Program-made: the position numbers and the translations under genes
Source of the DNA: Roseimaritima ulvae
GTDB lineage: Bacteria > Planctomycetota > Planctomycetia > Pirellulales > Pirellulaceae
DNA: 64,000 nt
Reading direction: 5' to 3'
Assembly: GCF_008065135.1 (NCBI RefSeq)
Contig: NZ_CP042914.1
Coordinates: 1,674,001 to 1,738,000 of the forward strand
Shown here: positions 2,963-41,961 of the stretch, piece by piece
Position numbering within the stretch: position 1 is the stretch's first letter
Layout of the letters: each line of letters begins with the position of its first letter
Notes under the pieces: generated by a model
Seen by the model: only the letters and a program-made list of their open reading frames with translations
Database searches by the model: none
What the model was told of the DNA's origin: nothing

Positions 2963-3019
2963 CCACGCTCTGGCGAGCGTAGCTACGAAAATATCCACGC
3001 TCTGGCGAGCGTAGCTACG
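2963..3019 (+). repeat. Dispersed hairpin repeat family A, two copies
   Basis: Two copies of CCACGCTCTGGCGAGCGTAG followed by CTACG, at 2963-2987 and 2995-3019. Each contains an inverted repeat ACGCTC-TGGC-GAGCGT able to form a short hairpin. Further copies lie at 21048-21237 and, in the opposite orientation, at 41626-41755. They sit just downstream of the stop of the DUF1552 gene. Confidence 0.8.
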
Positions 3020-9057: not shown

Positions 9058-9906
9058 ATGTGCGACCAAGATCATTTTGAAGAGGACCTGAAAAAGTACT
9101 CGCGTCGAGACTTTGGAGCTCTGGCGGCTGCCGGGGTGGGAGCTGCCGCGATGCTGCCTCAGACGGCCGCCGCCGCGGAAACCAGCGGCAGTGATGTGAT
9201 GATCAAGACGCCCGATGGCGAGTGTGATGCGTACTTCGTCGCCCCGGCGACTGGTAAGCACGCGGCCGTGCTGATCTGGCCGGATATCTTTGGGCTGCGA
9301 CCGGCGTTTCGCCAAATGGCCGACCGCTTGGCGGGATCCGGATACAGCGTGTTGGTCGTCAATCCGTTTTATCGAAAGCAAAAGGCACCCACGGCCGCCG
9401 ATGGCGCCAACACGCCGATTGCAGACGTCAGGCCGTTGGCTCGCAGCCTGACGCCAACCACGCACACCACCGATGCCAAGGCCTTTGTCGCTTGGTTGGA
9501 TGCCCAGCCGCAGGTCGACAAAGACAAACCGATGGGCACCACCGGGTACTGCATGGGCGGACCGATCGTGATGCGAACGGCTGCCGCCGTACCCGAACGA
9601 GTGGGCGCGGCCGCGACCTTCCATGGCGGTGGATTGGTTACCGACAACGAAGACAGCCCGCACCGCTTGATCCCGCAAATGAAAGCGGAGTTCTTGATTG
9701 CGATCGCCGAAAATGACGACCAACGCGATCCGGATGCCAAGAAGGTGCTGAAAGAAGCTTTCGCCGATGCCAAGTTGCCCGCGGAAATCGAAGTCTATCC
9801 GGCAGGCCACGGTTGGTGCCCGCCCGACACTCGGGTGCATAATTCCGAGCAAGCCGAAAAGGCGTGGACACGGATGCTGGTGTTGTTTGAGAAGACGCTT
9901 CGCTAG
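9058..9906 (+). CDS. Secreted dienelactone hydrolase family protein
   Basis: A 282-residue alpha/beta hydrolase. The N-terminus carries a twin-arginine-like signal ([20 protein letters not shown]) with an alanine-rich cleavage region near residue 40. The nucleophile elbow is GYCMGG with Cys165. The family motif WPDIFGLRP is at about 75-82, and a C-terminal GHGWCPP supplies the likely catalytic His. The Cys nucleophile is the hallmark of the dienelactone hydrolase family, which opens lactone rings. The actual substrate is unknown. It stands alone on plus, divergent from the SHD1 gene, and is followed by a riboswitch and sugE. Confidence 0.9.
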
Positions 9907-9923
9907 GGTCTTTTCTAAGACGC

Positions 9924-9964
9924 CCGGACGAGACGCGCCGTACCCGGTTAAGACAAGACGACGC
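9924..9964 (+). promoter_or_regulatory. Guanidine-III riboswitch (ykkC-III / mini-ykkC class III aptamer)
   Basis: The 41-nt segment reproduces in order the conserved blocks of the guanidine-III aptamer as I recall them: CCGGACGAG, GCGCCGTACCCGG and GACAAGACG, then a closing CGC. The length equals that of the compact crystallised aptamer. The 5' CCGG can pair with the downstream CCGG block, and GCGCCGT with the 3' ACGACGC region, giving the expected double-stem pseudoknot. It ends 33 nt before the ATG of a sugE/gdx gene, the known target of this class, with the Shine-Dalgarno sequence GTAGGAG in between. Control by free guanidinium, probably at translation initiation, is inferred from the class. 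Confidence 0.9.
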
Positions 9965-9997
9965 ACTTACGAATTTATTACCCGTAGGAGCATCGTC

Positions 9998-10324
9998 ATG
10001 CAGGCTTGGTTGATTTTGTTGGTCGCGGGATTGCTGGAAACCGGTTGGGCCGTGGGGTTGAAGTACACCGACGGCTTCACGCGGCTTTGGCCCAGTCTGG
10101 GCACTGCGGTGGCGCTGGTGGCTAGTATGTTGCTGCTGGCCGTCGCGGTACGCGAGTTGCCGATTGGCACCGCGTATCCGGTGTGGGTTGGCGTAGGAGC
10201 GGTGGGGGCAGCGATCTTTGGGATGCTCTATCTGGGCGAATCGGCTTCGCCGGCCCGCGTGTTTTTTCTCGGCTTGCTGCTGGTGTCCATCATCGGTCTG
10301 AAAATCACCTCCGCGGTCGAGTGA
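9998..10324 (+). CDS. sugE: SMR-family guanidinium exporter (SugE/Gdx)
   Basis: A 108-residue, four-helix inner-membrane protein of the small multidrug resistance family, with the conserved membrane-embedded Glu14 ([16 protein letters not shown]). The GLETGW-like start and the [17 protein letters not shown] loop mark the SugE/Gdx branch, which exports guanidinium in exchange for protons, rather than the EmrE drug-export branch. The frame is open further upstream, but the ATG at 9998 has GTAGGAG 7 bases before it and is the start of the first membrane helix. The guanidine-III aptamer directly upstream independently supports the function. Confidence 0.95.
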
Positions 10325-13632: not shown

Positions 13633-13659
13633 GCCGACCAGCAACCGCAGGTGATTGTG

Positions 13660-15144
13660 ATGCATCCGATCGAACAATTCCAACAGCAACAGACGCGGCG
13701 CCAGTGGCTGGCCAACAGTGCTCGACCGATGGGTGCTGCGGCACTGGCATGGTTGACCGGCGGCGCCGCGGTTCGTACGGCAATGGGCGATTCGACTGTG
13801 GCTGCCGCAACCGCGACGCCTTCGCCGACCGGGTTGCCCGGCTTGCCGCACTTTGCGCCTCAGGCCAAACGCGTGATCTATATGTTCATGGCCGGCGGAC
13901 CGTCCCACATCGATACCTTCGACTACAAGCCGGAATTGCGCAAGATTCACGGCCAGGAACTTCCCGCCTCGATCCGGATGGGCCAACGCATCACCGGTAT
14001 GACCTCGGGGCAAAAGGCGTTTCCCTGCGTGGCGCCGATGTTCAAGTTTGAAAAACATGGTCAACACGGCACCTACGTCAGCGAGCTGCTGCCGCATATC
14101 GCCAAAGTCGTCGACGACATCGCGATCGTCAAATCGGTTAATACGGAAGCTATCAACCACGACCCGGCGATTACGTACATCAATACCGGAGCACAGCAAC
14201 CCGGCAAAGCCAGCTTGGGAGCCTGGATCAGTTATGGGCTGGGCAGCGTCAATAGCGAGCTGCCGGCATACGTGGTGATGATTTCACGCGGTCCCGGCGG
14301 CAAGCAAGCGTTATACGAACGTTTGTGGGGAGCCGGGTTTTTGCCTTCCAAACATCAAGGCGTCAAGTTTCGTGGTGGCAGCGACCCGGTGCTCTACTTG
14401 CAGAATCCCGCCGGCGTCGACCGGGCTATGCGGCGGCGGATGCTGGACGGTTTGGCCAAAGTTAATCAAGAACATTTCGACAGCTTTGGCGATCCCGAGA
14501 CGCAAGCTCGGATCTCGCAGTATGAGATGGCGTTCCGGATGCAAGCTTCCGTGCCGGAGTTGACCGATTTGTCCGACGAGTCGGATGCGGTGATGGACAT
14601 GTACGGTCCGGATGCCCGCAAGCCTGGCACCTTCGCTCGCAATTGCGTTATCGCTCGACGCTTGGCCGAACGCGGCGTGCCGTTTACGCAACTATTTCAT
14701 CGTGGGTGGGATCAGCACGGCAACCTGCCGCGCGACCTTCGCGGACAGTGCCAAGGCATCGATCAACCGGCCGCGGCGTTGATCAAAGATTTGAAGCAAC
14801 GCGGCATGCTGGACGACACCCTGGTCATTTGGGGCGGGGAATTCGGACGCACGATTTACTCCCAGGGTAAGCTGACCGCCGACAACCATGGCCGCGATCA
14901 TCATGGTCGCTGCTTTACGATGTGGATGGCAGGCGGCGGGATACAGGGCGGTATGGAATACGGCAAGACCGACGAGTACTGCTACAACATCCTCGAGAAC
15001 CCGGTGCACATCCGCGACATCAACGCCACGATCCTGCACCAAATGGGCATCGACCACAATCGCTTGACCTTCAAGTACCAAGGTCTAGAGCAACGCGTCA
15101 CCGGAGTCGAACCGGCACACGTGGTGACCGATATCTTGGCGTAG
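13660..15144 (+). CDS. DUF1501 family secreted protein (sulfatase-like fold)
   Basis: A 494-residue protein typical of planctomycete DUF1501. It has a twin-arginine-like N-terminus ([20 protein letters not shown]), the metal-site-like [19 protein letters not shown], and the C-terminal GGEFGRT and [19 protein letters not shown] blocks, which recall the alkaline phosphatase/sulfatase superfamily. A GTG three codons upstream is also possible; the ATG at 13660 is preferred because AGGTGA precedes it. Encoded 27 bases after the PSCyt1 gene, it is probably exported together with that protein. The substrate is unknown. Confidence 0.92.
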
Positions 15145-15154
15145 TGTCGAGTTC

Positions 15155-17016
15155 GCCTGCGGCTACGTCGTTTAACCCGTAGCCGCAGGAGCCTCCCAAA
15201 GTTCGAACCGAACCCTCACGTCTGACAGGCTCCGCAGGCGCAGGGGTTGTCCGCCGGGGGCTGTAATCGAAGCGAACCGGTGGTGTGCATCGGTAGGCAG
15301 GCAGACATCCGAGGCTGCCCCGCGCCGGCGCCTGCGGCCCTATCGTTTAACCCGTAGCCGGAGGAGCCTCGCAAAGTTCGAACCGAACCCTCACGTCTAA
15401 CAGGCTCCGCAGGCGCAGGCGTTGTCCGCCGGGACGTGGCAATCGAAGCGAACCGGTGGTGTGCATCGGTTGGCAAGCAAACATCCGAGGCTGCCCGGCG
15501 CCGGCGCCTGCGGCTACGGGTTAAACGATGCGCCGGAGGAGCCTCGCAAGGTTCGAACCGCACCCTCACGTCTGACAGGCTCCGCAGGCGCAGGCGTTGT
15601 CCGCCGGGACGTGGCAATCGAAGCGAACCGGTGGTGTGCATCGGTTGGCAGGCAGACATCTGCGGTAGCCCCGCGCCGGCGCCTGCGGCCCTATCGTTTA
15701 ACCCGTAGCCGGAGGAGCCTCGCAAAGTTCGAACCGCACCCTCACGTCTAACAGGCTCCGCAGGCGCAGGCGTTGTCCGCCGGGGGCTGTAATCGAAGCG
15801 AACCGGTGGTGTGCATCGATTGGCATGCAAACATCTGCGGTAGCACGCGCCGGCGCCTGCGGCTACGGGTTAAACGATGCGCCGGAGGAGCCTCCCAAAG
15901 TTCGAACCGAACCCTCACGTCTAACAGGCTCCGCAGGCGCAGGCGTTGTCCGCCGGGACGTGGCAATCGAAGCGAACCGGTGGTGTGCATCGGTTGGCAA
16001 GCAAACATCCGAGGCTGCCCGGCGCCGGCGCCTGCGGCTACGGGTTAAACGATGCGCCGGAGGAGCCTCGCAAAGTTCGAACCGCACCCTCACGTCTGAC
16101 AGGCTCCGCAGGCGCAGGCGTTGTCCGCCGGGACGTGGCAATCGAAGCGAACCGGTGGCGTGCGTCGGTTGGCAGGCAGACATCTGCGGTAGCACGCGCC
16201 GGCGCCTGCGGCTACGGGTTAAACGATGCGCCGGAGGAGCCTCGCAAAGTTCGAACCGCACCCTCACGTCTGACAGGCTCCGCAGGCGCAGGCGTTGTCC
16301 GCCGGGGGCTGTAATCGAAGCGAACCGGTGGTGTGCATCGGTTGGCATGCAAACATCTGCGGTAGCCCCGCGCCGGCGCCTGCGGCTACGGGTTAAACGA
16401 TGCGCCGGAGGAGGCCTCCCAAAGTTCGAACCGAACCCTCACGTCTAACAGGCTCCGCAGGCGCAGGCGTTGTCCGCCGGGACGTGGCAATCGAAGCGAA
16501 CCGGTGGTGTGCATCGGTTGGCAAGCAAACATCCGAGGCTGCCCGGCGCCGGCGCCTGCGGCTACGGGTTAAACGATGCGCCGGAGGAGCCTCGCAAAGT
16601 TCGAACCGCACCCTCACGTCTGACAGGCTCCGCAGGCGCAGGCGTTGTCCGCCGGGGGCTGTAATCGAAGCGAACCGGTGGTGTGCATCGGTTGGCAGGC
16701 AGACATCTGCGATAGCGCGCGCCGGCGCCTGCGGCTACGGGTTAAACGATGCGCCGCAGGAGCCTCGCAAAGTTCGAATCGCACCCTCACGTCTAACAGG
16801 CTCCGCAGGCGCAGGCGTTGTCCGCCGGGGGCTGTAATCGAAGCGAACAGCTGGCGTGCGTCGGTTGGCAGGCAGACATCTGCGGTAGCCCCGCGCCGGC
16901 GCCTGCGGCTACGGGGTAAACGATGCGCCGGAGGAGCCTCGCAAAGTCCGAACCGCACCCTCACGTCTAACAGGCTCCGCAGGCGCAGGCGTTGTCCGCC
17001 GGGACGTGGCAATCGA
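15155..17016. repeat. Eleven-copy satellite array, monomer about 175 bp, with trimeric higher-order structure
   Basis: Eleven monomers can be aligned on the landmark GTTCGAACC (variants in the last two copies) at 15201, 15376, 15551, 15727, 15900, 16075, 16249, 16424, 16599, 16772 and 16946, a spacing of 173-176 bases. Each monomer holds, in order, CCTCACGTCT, AGGCTCCGCAGGCGCAGG, TTGTCCGCCGG, AATCGAAGCGAACC, a GCGCCGGCGCCTGCGG hairpin block, and a junction core related to CGTTTAACCCGTAGCCG. Units 2, 5 and 8 share diagnostic variants, as do 3, 6 and 9, and largely 4, 7 and 10, giving a trimer period of 522-524 bases. The array fills the space between two convergent genes and ends 5 bases before the stop of the minus-strand gene. 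Open frames across it are not kept in phase, so it is judged non-coding. Confidence 0.93.
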
Positions 17017-17021
17017 CGCGA

Positions 17022-20000
17022 CTATCTCCCGACGCGTTGCGTCCAACGCTCGACGGTGGGCCGCAGTGGCTTTGCATCGCCGTTTTGTGGTTCTGCGTCG
17101 GCGAAATGCTGACGCTGCAAGGCGTTGATGTCGGCTCGCAATTCCGCTCGTTCGCTACTGGGCCAATCGCGGGCCTGCGTTTGTTCGATCCGCCGCAGCA
17201 ACAGCGCCGCTCCGGTCGGCGTCAACGACTCGGGGATCTGGATCGCGGCGGCCGACACCGGACTGGGCGCGGCGCTCGCTCGGAGCCGTCCCCAAACGAA
17301 AAACGCTCCCAGCAACAAAGCCGCTAAGCCGCCCGACAGCCAAGCCAGCGGAGGGACACCCTGCGAGTCGAAACGCAGCGTTTGGCTTTCTACCGGCACC
17401 AGATCATAGTCTTCATAGGTGAAGCGTTTGATCGAGATCGGCGAGTCCGCGGGAGTATCTTTTGACGCAGCGTCGTCGGCATTCACCGCGTCAGCAGCCT
17501 GTTCTGGGGCGTCGCTCGGCGCGGCCTCGCCCTCGGCCGGAGCCTTTCGTGGTACGGTCAACGAGGCCAGGGTTTGCGTACTGGCGTCGCTGACCGCTGG
17601 GAATACAAACCGATCTGGTTTGGCGGCGGTGACAGAGGATTCCGGAGTGTATGTCAGACTCCATTTCCGCATGGTGCCCAGGCGGAACAGGCCGTCGCTG
17701 TCGGGGTCCAGATTCGGCAATGTTTTGGAGTAAGCCATGTAGGGATTGCGGTTGGTCGAGGTATCTTCTTCTTCTTCGGGTTGAGCCCGGTGGGTTTGGC
17801 TGACATCAAACGGATCGGCGACCAATTGAGCCTCGTCTAGGACATAGCCCGGCAAGGCGTCCGCCAAGTTGTCGAACAGGTGGTTGATCTGCGGCAGCAC
17901 GCCGGTGGCGCGGGCGACGATTTCCAGCCGCACCGTTTGTTCGTCTTTCTGATCCAGCATCGGACGGGCGTCGAGCGTTTGTTCGATCACCAAATCATCC
18001 AGCGGCCGTGGCGCGGGATCGGCGGCGGCGTCGATCAACACCGTGTTGGACAACACCGGCAATACGATCGGTCCCGAGGCATCGTTGAAATGCATGTCCA
18101 TTTGCACGGCCGGCAGTCGGTCGACGCTGGGGTCGTTGGCTTGCAGAACCAAGTAGGCCATCGGTTTTTCTTGCCATCCGGTCTGGCCTTCCAGCCGGAT
18201 CGGAACGGCGGGGTTCATCGGTTGGAAGAAACCGATGCCTAACAATTGGACGGTACCGCTGAAGGATTTTTCGATGCTTTTCTGCAGTCGTTCCTGATAA
18301 TTAATTGTCTGCCATTGCCCGCCGCTGAACTGCGAAAAACTGTCCATCAGGTAGCGGGCAAAGCCGCCGGAGGAGCGGTCGATCGAAGCGGTGTGTTGTA
18401 GCGTGAGGATTGCACCAAAGGGCTCGGTACCCACGCGGTCGCTGCCGTCGATGGTAAGGTGCAGATGGATTTCATCTTCGACCAGTTCGTTGTACAGGTC
18501 CAAGGTACGGTGGATCGGCGCCCCGGCCGGATGGTCGCCAACGACCCGAGCGGCCGCTTGCAACAGCCGCGGTTTGACTTCGGGTTTGGTTTGCGACAAT
18601 CCGGACATTACGCCGCGAGCGAATTCGCCAATATGGTAATTCGAATGCTGTGGTGTCATCTTTAGAATGTCGTCGCGGATACGATCGATTTGGTCGGCGT
18701 TTTCCATGCCCTCGGTCATCAAATCTTCCAACGTCAGAGCGCCCAGGTCGCTGGCACCCAGGGCCAGACTGAACCACACGTTGTAGATCTGCATGTCGGG
18801 GCGTACGCGACCGTCGGCCAAGGCTTCGCGGTACCGCGAGGCGGCGTCTTCGAAGGCGCTGAACACCAGTTTGCGAGCCGCGTGGTAGGCCACCGCGTCT
18901 TGTTCTCGTTCGCCGCGGAACTGCATGCGGTCGAAGCTGAGGGCGGCTCTGAGAATGGCGTGTTGCCAGGCGTCCTGTTCGTCCTGACTGTTGGCGACGG
19001 CCGATTCGGCTAGCGCCGTCGCCAAGTCGTAGCCGCTTTCGACAATCTTTCGCAGTTCGGATTCGCTGCGTTCAAACCCGGCGTCTTCCTGCGCCTTGCG
19101 ACTCCGCCAATCACCGCTCAGCCCCTGCCGCATGGTCGAAGCCAGTTGGCCGGCGACCGAGGCATCGATTTGATCGATCGGGCCGAGGATGCGTTCGATC
19201 GTGTCGCGTTCATAGGCCTGGGTAGGGCCGTAGCTGGCGCTTAATGCCGTCACCACACCCGGCAGCTTGCGGCCGTCGATGCCAATGCCGTCCAACACGT
19301 CCAGCAATTCGGCCAGACGATCGAGATTGCGTTGTTGCCAACCTCGAGTGATCGGCGTGGAGGGACGAGAGCGGCGGCTGAATGCATAGAACCAAGCGTT
19401 ATTGTTCATCACCGGTTCGCGGGTACGAGCCTGCATGCGGTCGACCCACAGGTCCAGGAATCCCGTCGCCAGTTCAGTGCTCATCGCCGGCTGACGCTCG
19501 ACGCCTTGTGCTAACAGTTCCAAGGCCAGATCGGTTTCGTCGGCGATCAGGGCCACGCCGATGAAGGCGTTGTAAGCGCGGCCGACCAGGCTGGGTTCGA
19601 TTTGTTTACGCCAGGCTTCGTCGGGCATCGAACGCAGCAGTAAGGCGGCGACCTCGGACACTCCGTTCTTATTAGCTTGTTCTTTGATCGCGTTTTCCGC
19701 TCGCGACAGCAGGCCGATGGTCAGCATCCGCAAGGGGATCGTCAGTTGGTCCAGTTGCAGGTGTTGCTGAGCCAGCAGCGTATCGACCGCTTCTTTCATG
19801 GTCAGGATGGCCTGTGCCCGGACGGCTTCGGGCAATTTCTCGTCCTCTAGTTTGAGGGCCTTCAAAGCCACCGCTTGCAGGCCTGCCGGAGCCAACGAGG
19901 GATGTTCGAACAGACTCCGCAGCCAAGCTAGGCCTGGTCCCGGTGGCACGCGGGGCAGCAGGTCGACGGCGCGGCTGAGGCATTCGGAGCGGAGGGTTGT

Positions 20001-21245
20001 GTCGGCGCTGTCGAGCAATGCAATTTCGCCGAACAGCGACCAAGCATTTTCGACCATCCGATCGGCGGCGGCTCCTTTGGCTTCGGCCGCACGGGCCATC
20101 AGATACTCGGCGTGTCCTTTCATCACGACCGCGTTTTCCGCTTCGCGAGCCTCTTCCAGCGAGGGCATGAATTCGAAGGCTTCGATCGGCAGTCCGGCGG
20201 CCAACAACAACCGCATGGTGCGTTTGCGATGCGCCTCGGTTTCGGTGCCGAACCAAGTGGTGCCTTTGCGGAAGCGTTCGATCAAGGGACGCGTACTGGT
20301 TTTCTTCGCGGCGGCTTTCAGCAACCCTGCCAAGGCGTCGATCTGCCAGTCGGTCAGTTCCGCGGGAGCCGCTTCGGATAGCCCCAGCACATCCTCGGGG
20401 ATCAATTCGGAATCGGCATGGTTGGTGCCCGAGATCAACGCGGCGTACATGCCTTCGGCTTCGTTGCCGGCTCGCAGCACCAACAAAGCTTTGACGGCGT
20501 CCCATTCGGCGGCCATGGCATGGCGATGGAACCACTGCACGATTTCTTGGTCACTGGCGTCCTCGGCCGGCAGCGATTGAGATTCCATGCCGATCTGGCT
20601 GCGGGCTCCCAAAACCGCTTCCGGACGACGCACGAATTTGACCGTTCGCATCTGCCGCACCAGTTGACGGCGGCGACCATTGGCCGTGCCGCCCCCGTTG
20701 TCGTCTTGCAGCCAGGGACTCAGGTCTAGCCCCAGGTCTTTGTAGTACACGACCATGGCGCGGCGTTCGGTTTCAGGAAGCGTTTTTAATGTGTCCAAAA
20801 TCGCTTGCGTGTCCGCGTCGGGTTTGGGAGCGGCCGCTGGTTTGTTTGCCGCGGCAGCTTGTGCTGCAGCGGAGTTGTTCTGCGAAGCAGCCGAATCGGC
20901 TTGGGGTTGCGCCGCGGCGGATGGGGTGGCTTGGTCGGCGCGGAAGATCTGTACCGCAGCTGTACTCTGAGCCGTAGCCGAGGGGGCGTGTGTGAGCGTT
21001 AGGGCGGTCAGCATCGTGGCTACGGCGAGTGCGAGAGGGCGTGAGACCCAGGCTCTGGCGAGCGTAGTTAGGAGGGACGCAGCGACGGGGATGCCTGACC
21101 ACGCTCTGGCGAGCGTAGCTACGAAGGGCGTGGCGACGATTCGAGCGGGACGCGTGGAGTTCATGGGTTGGTTCGAACGGTTTGTCATGATTGGCAACGG
21201 TTGGGTTGTGTTCCAAGCTCTAGCGAGGGTCGCTACGTTCTTCAT
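17022..21245 (-). CDS. Large secreted helical-repeat protein with C-terminal membrane anchor, last gene of Bat-type operon
   Basis: An unrecognised protein of up to 1,407 residues. A signal-like hydrophobic segment (ALAVATMLTALTLTHAPSATA) lies at about 72-92. A long, mostly helical region with Ala/Leu/Glu-rich repeats follows, then a beta-rich part after about residue 940 (LHLTIDGSDRVGTEPFGAIL). A single transmembrane helix lies near residue 1,300 (WLSGGLAALLLGAFFVWG), with a short cytoplasmic tail. Position and topology suggest a BatD-like role, but I see no clear BatD signature. The N-terminus is odd: VATLARAW, VATLARAW and LTTLARAW are translated family-A repeats, so the start is uncertain. 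ATGs at 21245, 21188 and 21164 are all possible and none has a good Shine-Dalgarno sequence. The stop abuts the satellite array. Confidence 0.8.
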   Translation of the reverse strand: MKNVATLARAWNTTQPLPIMTNRSNQPMNSTRPARIVATPFVATLARAWSGIPVAASLLTTLARAWVSRPLALAVATMLTALTLTHAPSATAQSTAAVQIFRADQATPSAAAQPQADSAASQNNSAAAQAAAANKPAAAPKPDADTQAILDTLKTLPETERRAMVVYYKDLGLDLSPWLQDDNGGGTANGRRRQLVRQMRTVKFVRRPEAVLGARSQIGMESQSLPAEDASDQEIVQWFHRHAMAAEWDAVKALLVLRAGNEAEGMYAALISGTNHADSELIPEDVLGLSEAAPAELTDWQIDALAGLLKAAAKKTSTRPLIERFRKGTTWFGTETEAHRKRTMRLLLAAGLPIEAFEFMPSLEEAREAENAVVMKGHAEYLMARAAEAKGAAADRMVENAWSLFGEIALLDSADTTLRSECLSRAVDLLPRVPPGPGLAWLRSLFEHPSLAPAGLQAVALKALKLEDEKLPEAVRAQAILTMKEAVDTLLAQQHLQLDQLTIPLRMLTIGLLSRAENAIKEQANKNGVSEVAALLLRSMPDEAWRKQIEPSLVGRAYNAFIGVALIADETDLALELLAQGVERQPAMSTELATGFLDLWVDRMQARTREPVMNNNAWFYAFSRRSRPSTPITRGWQQRNLDRLAELLDVLDGIGIDGRKLPGVVTALSASYGPTQAYERDTIERILGPIDQIDASVAGQLASTMRQGLSGDWRSRKAQEDAGFERSESELRKIVESGYDLATALAESAVANSQDEQDAWQHAILRAALSFDRMQFRGEREQDAVAYHAARKLVFSAFEDAASRYREALADGRVRPDMQIYNVWFSLALGASDLGALTLEDLMTEGMENADQIDRIRDDILKMTPQHSNYHIGEFARGVMSGLSQTKPEVKPRLLQAAARVVGDHPAGAPIHRTLDLYNELVEDEIHLHLTIDGSDRVGTEPFGAILTLQHTASIDRSSGGFARYLMDSFSQFSGGQWQTINYQERLQKSIEKSFSGTVQLLGIGFFQPMNPAVPIRLEGQTGWQEKPMAYLVLQANDPSVDRLPAVQMDMHFNDASGPIVLPVLSNTVLIDAAADPAPRPLDDLVIEQTLDARPMLDQKDEQTVRLEIVARATGVLPQINHLFDNLADALPGYVLDEAQLVADPFDVSQTHRAQPEEEEDTSTNRNPYMAYSKTLPNLDPDSDGLFRLGTMRKWSLTYTPESSVTAAKPDRFVFPAVSDASTQTLASLTVPRKAPAEGEAAPSDAPEQAADAVNADDAASKDTPADSPISIKRFTYEDYDLVPVESQTLRFDSQGVPPLAWLSGGLAALLLGAFFVWGRLRASAAPSPVSAAAIQIPESLTPTGAALLLRRIEQTQARDWPSSERAELRADINALQRQHFADAEPQNGDAKPLRPTVERWTQRVGR
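21048..21237 (+). repeat. Dispersed hairpin repeat family A, three copies inside a 5' coding end
   Basis: Copies lie at 21048-21071 (CCAGGCTCTGGCGAGCGTAG, then TTAGG), 21099-21123 (the exact consensus) and 21213-21237 (CCAAGCTCTAGCGAGGGTCG, then CTACG). Read on minus they fall in the frame of the large secreted protein gene and encode (L/V)(A/T)TLARAW. The two inner copies bracket the region before the hydrophobic signal segment. Confidence 0.8.
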
Positions 21246-41597: not shown

Positions 41598-41961
41598 AGC
41601 GTAGTGTGGGGTGTGCCGAACGTTATCGTCGCGACGCTCGCTAGAGCGTGGAAAAAGCATCCTACCTACGCTCGCCAGAGCGTGGTAAGAGCATCGTAGC
41701 TACGCTCGCCAGAGCGTGGGAGACCATCATCGTAGCTAGGCTCGCCAGAGCGTGGGAAGTATTGCCGTCCAATTCGTCTATCAGGGCCAGTGTAATCGTT
41801 GCTGTACCCAGCCTCTGCCAGTTGGTTCACGGCGATTAAGAAAGTTGTGTGAAGGTGCGATCTGAAACTATTAAACGGTTTGCTTATTCGCCATACTATC
41901 GAGCGAAAGTTCGGTGCCCGCCGTCCTGCCTTCGATTTCCCCCCCTCCACGGTTGCGTCCT
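41598..41961. other. Intergenic region between divergent E1-like gene and LamG/PQQ operon
   Basis: About 360 bases of divergent promoter region. The left half is filled by four copies of repeat family A. The right half, from about 41760, is lower in GC content and probably carries the operon promoter, but no clear consensus is recognised. Confidence 0.55.
41626..41755 (-). repeat. Dispersed hairpin repeat family A, four tandem copies
   Basis: Copies at 41626-41651, 41662-41685, 41695-41719 and 41731-41755 share CTACGCTCGCCAGAGCGTGG (the first with GCTAGAG), separated by 9-11 bases of unrelated sequence. Orientation is opposite to the copies at 2963-3019. Each carries the hairpin ACGCTC-GCCA-GAGCGT, so the leader of the E1-like gene could form a string of stem-loops. 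Confidence 0.85.

Follow-up and report, generated by a model that had tools for sequence, protein, structure and literature searches.

Tandem arrays of an inverted REP doublet in Roseimaritima ulvae, probably dispersed by a RAYT-like transposase and homogenised within each array

Here we analysed a tandem array of about eleven units of 173-176 bases in the chromosome of Roseimaritima ulvae (NZ_CP042914.1, positions 1,674,001 to 1,738,000). This whole stretch of 64,000 nucleotides is called the window below, and the genome is a single contig of 8,212,515 bases. The array is probably a tandemly amplified doublet of repetitive extragenic palindromic (REP) sequences, of the type of bacterial interspersed mosaic elements (BIMEs) and REP doublets forming hairpins (REPINs), which was dispersed by a REP-associated tyrosine transposase (RAYT) and then homogenised locally. 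A preliminary description of the same DNA had called the array a bacterial satellite; this label misses the nature of the unit, which is a REP doublet with outward tags, present at no fewer than 41 places and with a RAYT-like gene inside one of its arrays.

The unit is a 184-base doublet, CGTTTAACCCGTAGCCGCAGGAGCC ... GGCGCCTGCGGCTACGGGTTAAACG, in which two inverted REPs carry the tag CGTTTAACCCGTAG outward and about 150 bases lie between them. Two inverted REPs thus form the unit, as in REPINs and BIMEs, and GTAG stands 5′ of the palindrome in this genome, as in the GTAG REP superfamily. One complete doublet was taken from each of 35 of the 41 arrays, chosen for having both tags, and their length is 181-186 bases. 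The single-stranded doublet folds into a hairpin: the consensus fold of these 35 doublets has 34 pairs at -50.5 kcal/mol, with an outer stem and two side arms, and a solo copy with short flanks folded as DNA gave z = -4.08, none of 200 shuffles being as stable. Conservation is 98.7% in paired columns and 75.7% in unpaired columns, or 98.3 and 75.4% when the tags are left out; the comparison is not independent, because the fold derives from the same alignment.

For this structure to appear, the unit has to be cut in the doublet phase, with the tags outside. In the monomer phase, RNAalifold on 154 different units found no notable structure (-3.2 and -2.3 kcal/mol by strand; -6.5 and -7.6 kcal/mol for doubled units), and single units folded with z of -1.1 on one strand and -1.0 on the other. 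These last values speak against the array encoding tandem structured RNAs or a repeat protein, a very improbable explanation which is suggested by the GC-rich palindromes and by open reading frames (ORFs) of up to 207 aa running through the array. The only Rfam match in the window is a guanidine-III riboswitch away from the array, and 15000-17200 contains no sigma-70 promoter-like site. A protein-coding repeat was rejected, as 8 of the 10 unit lengths are not divisible by three and the frame therefore changes from unit to unit.

The arrangement of the tags follows a strict rule. Among 148 junctions between neighbouring units there are 73 with a single '>' tag, 63 with a single '<' tag, 12 with '><' and none without a tag; the outward tag ('<' or '<<') stands at the left edge of 39 of the 41 arrays, and its counterpart ('>' or '>>') at the right edge of 27. 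Neighbouring doublets therefore mostly share one tag, whose direction is free. All 148 neighbouring pairs stand on the same strand, head to tail. Since the ends are near-perfect inverted repeats, independent insertions would be expected on both strands, and for this reason growth of the arrays by head-to-tail copying is most likely.

Genome-wide, 226 matches to the monomer were found. Those listed give at least 189 monomers at 41 or more places (33 fetched stretches and the window), both numbers being lower bounds, with 1-13 units each and about 32 kb altogether; 9 of the 41 places hold a single unit or fragment. The exact 18-base REP end (the 18-mer with CTAC/GTAG) occurs 261 times in the genome against 0 for the reversed control, and 406 times at one mismatch or fewer; 163 of the 261 exact copies lie within the 41 arrays and their 80-base margins. 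Units are 91.6% identical within arrays (487 pairs) versus 69.8% between arrays (15,266 pairs), so each array is homogeneous in itself.

The copies are many, dispersed and mostly intergenic, as for REPINs and BIMEs, and all 41 examined places lie between genes called by a home-made caller. This caller missed the RAYT gene in one array (L054), so single gaps are possibly misclassed. Of 40 array gaps, 20 are convergent, 16 unidirectional and 4 divergent. Convergent gaps are over-represented (20/40 versus 20/175 among the other gene pairs in the same stretches and the window; Fisher p = 3e-7), and the share of divergent gaps is not different from background (p = 0.34).

The enrichment in convergent gaps may also be explained by a host function, the hairpin blocks stopping or insulating transcription that converges on them, making mRNA 3′ ends more stable, or binding gyrase or nucleoid proteins, as has been proposed for enterobacterial BIMEs. 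The strong conservation of the paired arms agrees with it, as do five terminator-like sites in 15000-17200 against a shuffled mean of 2.0 (sd 1.5), three such sites recurring in units 2, 5 and 8 on the minus strand. We nevertheless regard such a function as an unlikely explanation of the array: unit number ranges from 1 to 13, the terminator-like stems within the array have only 5 pairs and lie on one strand only, and avoidance of promoters alone would yield the same placement. Besides, neither the monomer nor the exact REP has a match in three genus-mates. The preliminary description had proposed a search of related genomes for the same monomer. In a family-wide DNA search of 241 genomes, which scored three candidate stretches per genome and can miss matches, 10 other genomes did match, but only with pieces of 23-87 bases.

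A candidate for the dispersing enzyme lies inside the repeat itself. The L054 array contains an ORF of 212 residues with a Y1_Tnp domain (Pfam 29 bits versus a cut-off of 23), the HUH Y1 transposase domain of RAYT/TnpA_REP proteins. The gene sits within a monomer, with profile positions 1-77 on one side and 122-169 on the other, and is flanked by monomers and exact REPs (L054/L102) as in a REPtron. Solved structures gave weak matches to the protein, the best at E 0.007 being a putative transposase. At E 1e-10 relatives were found in 33 of 241 family genomes, the own genome included; there is one match in the own genome and one in 28 of the 33, while 5 of the 33 have two or three, some of them fragments, so that one RAYT gene per genome is usual. 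The HxH and YVxxNP motifs are conserved in at least 90% of 30 aligned rows. Other IS200-like transposases were rejected as the driver, 12 of the 13 Y1_Tnp loci of the genome having neither REP nor monomer in the roughly 3.3 kb fetched around each.

The position of the gene between the two parts of a monomer would also fit a miniature inverted-repeat transposable element (MITE), that is, an IS200/IS605-like element shortened by internal deletion, with the RAYT-containing monomer in L054 as its full version. This seems unlikely to us for two reasons. At E 1e-10 the genome has a single match to the RAYT-like transposase, so the behaviour of the full element is not that of a multiplying insertion sequence, and the unit ends are inverted REPs, whereas IS200/IS605 elements have non-identical left and right ends.

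The REPs change together with the transposase. The motif CGTTTAAC-NNNN-AGCC-NNN-GGCG was found at up to 3 mismatches in 27 of 30 transposase loci, the own locus included (reversed control 5 of 30), and at least twice in 25 of the 30. The tetranucleotide before the hairpin differs between genera (CCGT, AGTC, GGCA, GCCA, CGGT, CCGC, CGCG). On the transposase tree the tag type changes 10 times, where 7 is the minimum possible, the shuffled mean is 17.5 and none of 200 shuffles was as low; the tag classes in this test were lumped by hand, and near-copies help clustering. Dispersal by the RAYT is thus suggested by the flanking of its gene and by the co-variation of REP tag and transposase.

The loci of other genera also have repeats of their own. 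Exact inverted complementarity of 26-39 bases, in other letters, surrounds transposase relatives of other genera in 9 of the 30 loci, one of which (L153) is without the REP motif. Tandem Repeats Finder (TRF) on nine transposase loci of other genera detected tandem repeats around the gene in eight, most of them containing the REP and with periods mostly of 33 to 263 bases, and none around the gene at L147. L149, L150, L132, L133 and L128 have tandem REP arrays of their own, with periods mostly of 34 to 263 bases, and can be used as a comparison set for the evolution of unit length. In genome G065 (L115/L118) an array of 178 bases x 3.8 units has the same REP tag and an unrelated body. A satellite body common to genera was rejected, since the G065 body matches the monomer only in the REP.

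Several observations weigh against dispersal of the doublet by the RAYT followed by local homogenisation. The outward tag is missing from 14 of 41 right edges, and covariation in the own genome is nearly absent (1 of 34 pairs changed on both sides) because the arms hardly vary. The NCBIfam REP-associated model NF047646 gave the transposase 51.3 bits, under its cut-off of 80. Only 1 of the 13 genomic Y1_Tnp matches has these REPs within the fetched 1.5 kb on each side. The three genus-mates are without a RAYT relative at E 1e-10, so the association of RAYT and chromosome may be recent or accidental. A REP of this shape was not found in 3 of the 30 scanned transposase loci, and GTAG was rejected as a universal tag of the lineage, other genera having CAAG, TCAG, GCAG and others there. 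A super-repeat, described below, is not detected at p_any 0.05 in 11 of the 14 longer arrays, and the terminator-like sites leave room for a host role. Finally, the mobility of the doublet is read from sequence comparison.

In the window, TRF placed the array at 15182-17021 with a period of 175, 10.5 copies and 90% matches. Eleven anchors spaced 173-176 bases apart mark units that stand head to tail, the eleventh cut off after about 95 bases, so the tandem monomers of the preliminary description are confirmed apart from the truncation of the last. The array was also correctly placed between convergent genes, as it occupies the whole gap between the end of a DUF1501 gene at 15144 (+) and that of another gene at 17022 (-). 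A 16-base segment, CTACGGGTTAAACGAT, is found at the unit junctions and is inverted after units 1 and 3. An additional REP half, read from the sequence, adjoins the left edge. The preliminary description mentioned neither of these features, nor the spread of the family over the chromosome. The features are as follows.

13651..15144 (+): DUF1501 gene, left convergent neighbour
15169..15182 (+): left-edge tag CGTTTAACCCGTAG of the first REP doublet, outward (from the sequence; a left-edge tag is present in 39/41 arrays)
15182..15356 (+): monomer 1, followed by an inverted ('<') junction tag before unit 2
15344..15357 (+): junction tag 1/2, '<' direction
15344..15527 (+): unit 2 together with its two outward tags, forming a complete 184-base REP doublet
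15357..15531 (+): monomer 2, class A of the trimer (2/5/8)
15532..15707 (+): monomer 3, class B (3/6, weakly 9)
15695..15708 (+): junction tag 3/4, '<', inverted relative to later junctions
15708..15880 (+): monomer 4, class C (4/7)
15881..16055 (+): monomer 5, class A
16056..16229 (+): monomer 6, class B
16230..16404 (+): monomer 7, class C
16405..16579 (+): monomer 8, class A
16580..16752 (+): monomer 9, a mosaic that falls between B and C
16753..16926 (+): monomer 10
16927..17021 (+): monomer 11, truncated where it reaches the stop codon of the convergent gene
17022..21245 (-): right convergent neighbour, 1407 codons from the first ATG (the codon-based caller starts at 21014); no Pfam family at E 0.001

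Within this array, units three apart are more alike than neighbours, which is the mark of a higher-order repeat. For the 152-base unit bodies without the end tag, identity is 95.0% at lag 3 and 93.3% at lag 6 against 89.9-90.0% at lags 1, 2, 4 and 5, and permutation of the order of the ten full units gave p = 0.0008 for lag 3 and 0.0015 for any lag 1-5. With all columns the signal is weaker because the junction segment is inverted after units 1 and 3: lag 3 stands at 94.0% against 89.5% (lag 1), 90.7% (lag 2) and 89.7% (lag 4), and the permutation p rises to 0.0017 for lag 3 and to 0.011 for any lag 1-5. The tree of units groups 2/5/8 with support 0.967, 3/6 with 0.955 and 4/7 with 0.933. The trimeric order seen earlier is therefore upheld by permutation and tree, and its classes stand as proposed except for unit 9, which had been placed with 3 and 6 and joins them only weakly (0.583). 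By identity this unit is nearer to 4 and 7 (96.1% each, versus 92.9 and 93.5% to 3 and 6), so the third class is a mosaic; units 1, 10 and 11 are partly outside the trimer scheme.

Fourteen arrays have at least 6 usable units, and p_any is below 0.01 in three of them, namely the window (lag 3), L042 (lag 3) and L063 (lag 5). L042 is the second array with a super-repeat at lag 3 (p_any 0.005), and the directions of its internal tags recur in step with the trimer (>, <, >, >, <, >). Amplification of blocks of several units is thus supported in the window and likewise in L042.

A course of events can be proposed from these patterns. The RAYT-like HUH transposase most likely acts on single-stranded DNA, where it recognises the REP ends, and would have dispersed doublets to intergenic places with convergent gaps over-represented. 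At many of these places further doublets would then have been added head to tail, each with one tag, through RAYT nicking and rolling-circle-like copying or through slippage at the hairpin. From two units onward, unequal exchange or block slippage may have homogenised the arrays separately and left super-repeats in some; the pattern of homogeneity itself is plain in the data, and unequal exchange is a process we infer from it. Occasional inversion of the short tag, which lies between two hairpin arms, is probable. A tentative and rather doubtful idea is that the RAYT, as an HUH nickase, also builds the arrays: rolling-circle-like copying would start from the tag, and would leave all units head to tail with a single shared tag at each junction.

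The history of the window array was approached through its right neighbour (17022..21245), which has relatives in 3 of 19 other genomes searched. In G145, from another genus (L065/L158), about 1.1 degenerate monomers lie in pieces directly after the stop codon of the orthologue, covering profile 1-101, which an insert interrupts, and 81-168. The monomer adjacent to the gene is truncated at profile 101 in G145 and 97 in the window, the same base by eye. The insert splitting the G145 monomer is unrelated, palindromic and about 130 bases long, and resembles another miniature element. No monomer was present in the fetched stretch of G143, of the genus of G145, or of the more distant G147. The G145 copy bears a CCGT-type tag like those of the own genome, and the REPs of the G145 transposase are of CGGT type. 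With this tag at the orthologous place, the founding copy may be older than the amplification, or it may have arrived with the gene by transfer; units may have been gained in the own genome or lost in G145.

Such a remnant in another genus would also be expected if an old repeat had grown and been homogenised only through slippage during replication or unequal exchange dependent on RecA, the RAYT gene being a bystander insertion. The single direction of all neighbouring units, the super-repeats and the array-specific homogeneity are also in line with this explanation. It is, however, somewhat unlikely, as it leaves unexplained the 41 dispersed places, the solo 184-base copies with constant ends, and the finding that this transposase lineage is accompanied by matching REPs in further genera. 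The G145 locus has a bearing on the assembly as well. Repeats this long are often collapsed or expanded, yet there is hardly any chance that the array is an artefact: the genome is a single contig, the units differ among themselves, the right-hand junction of the array is common, within a few bases, to the orthologous gene in G145, and 40 more places show the same build.

Other features of the window were also noted. A second REP-like family, GCTACGCTCGCCAGAGCGTGG, occurs at 2963-3015, 21048-21119 and 41631-41755, with 8 copies at up to 3 mismatches versus 0 in shuffles, four of them in tandem with a 34-base period. Two copies at 21048-21119 (-) fall in the N-terminal region of the long ORF (17022-21245), which there reads ATLARAW or TLARAW three times; either these REPs lie in a coding region or the start codon has been set too far upstream. 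The riboswitch mentioned above, at 9903-9967 (+) with 66 bits, lies directly before a gene of the small multidrug resistance family at 9998-10324 (+) (Pfam 91.9 bits), presumably the pairing expected for a guanidine exporter.

On one chromosome, the doublet stands at no fewer than 41 places, singly or in arrays of up to 13 units, which obey a strict rule at their junctions, show both tag directions and in some cases have super-repeats. This set provides a natural record of array growth, and yields testable predictions on RAYT action. It also presents satellite-type patterns, local homogeneity and higher-order units, in a bacterium. If the RAYT does build the arrays by copying from the tag, bacterial chromosomes can hold true multi-locus satellites that are seeded by a domesticated transposase, homogenised by recombination and marked by super-repeats. 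The best-ranked titles and abstract openings for a small set of terms contained no mention of this repeat, of a planctomycete REP satellite this large or of a higher-order repeat in a REP array.

Several known systems can be compared with these arrays. The spread of REP sequences is termed poorly understood (PMC8266576). The REPINs of Pseudomonas fluorescens SBW25 are inverted REP doublets which occur as solo copies, as ordered tandem clusters and as clusters adjoining RAYT genes; the largest ordered cluster has four REPINs and one REP, usually with short unrepeated DNA between units, and GI-GIII tandem arrays show a neighbour-distance peak at 184 bases and at most 12 REPs (PMC3116915). A second mechanism for ordered clusters was suggested there and not identified (PMC3116915). 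The arrays described here share the inverted doublet as unit and the solo copies together with ordered tandem clusters. They differ in reaching 13 units, in occupying many more places, in mostly having one shared tag, in carrying a RAYT gene inside a unit, and in the multi-unit super-repeat, of which the available portion of the SBW25 paper makes no mention (PMC3116915).

Enterobacterial BIMEs consist of a REP and an inverted REP with a linker, often in consecutive tandem copies, and are intergenic (PMC8266576). In the present arrays the linker is about 150 bases, a single REP type was found in the examined arrays and the direction of the junction tag is free. The GTAG REP superfamily is intergenic, lies mostly between convergent and unidirectional genes and is RAYT-associated; Planctomycetes including R. 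baltica carry such REPs, with large clusters reiterated in tandem with flanking DNA (PMC3733652). GTAG next to the palindrome, intergenic position, convergent and unidirectional gaps and RAYT association are all found here, whereas the conserved CGTTTAAC before the tag and the variation by genus of the tetranucleotide before the hairpin set our REPs apart. TnpA_REP/RAYT proteins are a family of HUH Y1 transposases (PMC6006769). The protein found here resembles them in its Y1_Tnp domain, in HxH and YVxxNP, in being mostly one per genome and in the REPs around its gene, and differs from them by scoring under the NCBIfam REP_Tyr_transpos cut-off and by weak structure matches.

In alpha-satellite, blocks of diverged monomers are amplified and homogeneity is array-specific. 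The higher-order blocks and array-specific homogeneity described here are alike, and the similar monomer length is coincidental; unlike alpha-satellite, the arrays here are short and bacterial, consist of a mobile doublet that occupies dozens of places, and have no centromere role. The preliminary description had seen in the array a rare bacterial counterpart of alpha-satellite, but tandem REP, BIME and REPIN clusters are known (PMC3116915, PMC8266576), so it is no isolated counterpart. What is new beside the known tandem REP arrays is that the arrays are longer and at many more places, that tags are shared, that one unit holds a transposase gene and that some arrays have higher-order repeats. 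For a bacterium, the size and uniform build of the arrays and the super-repeat of three units are unusual.

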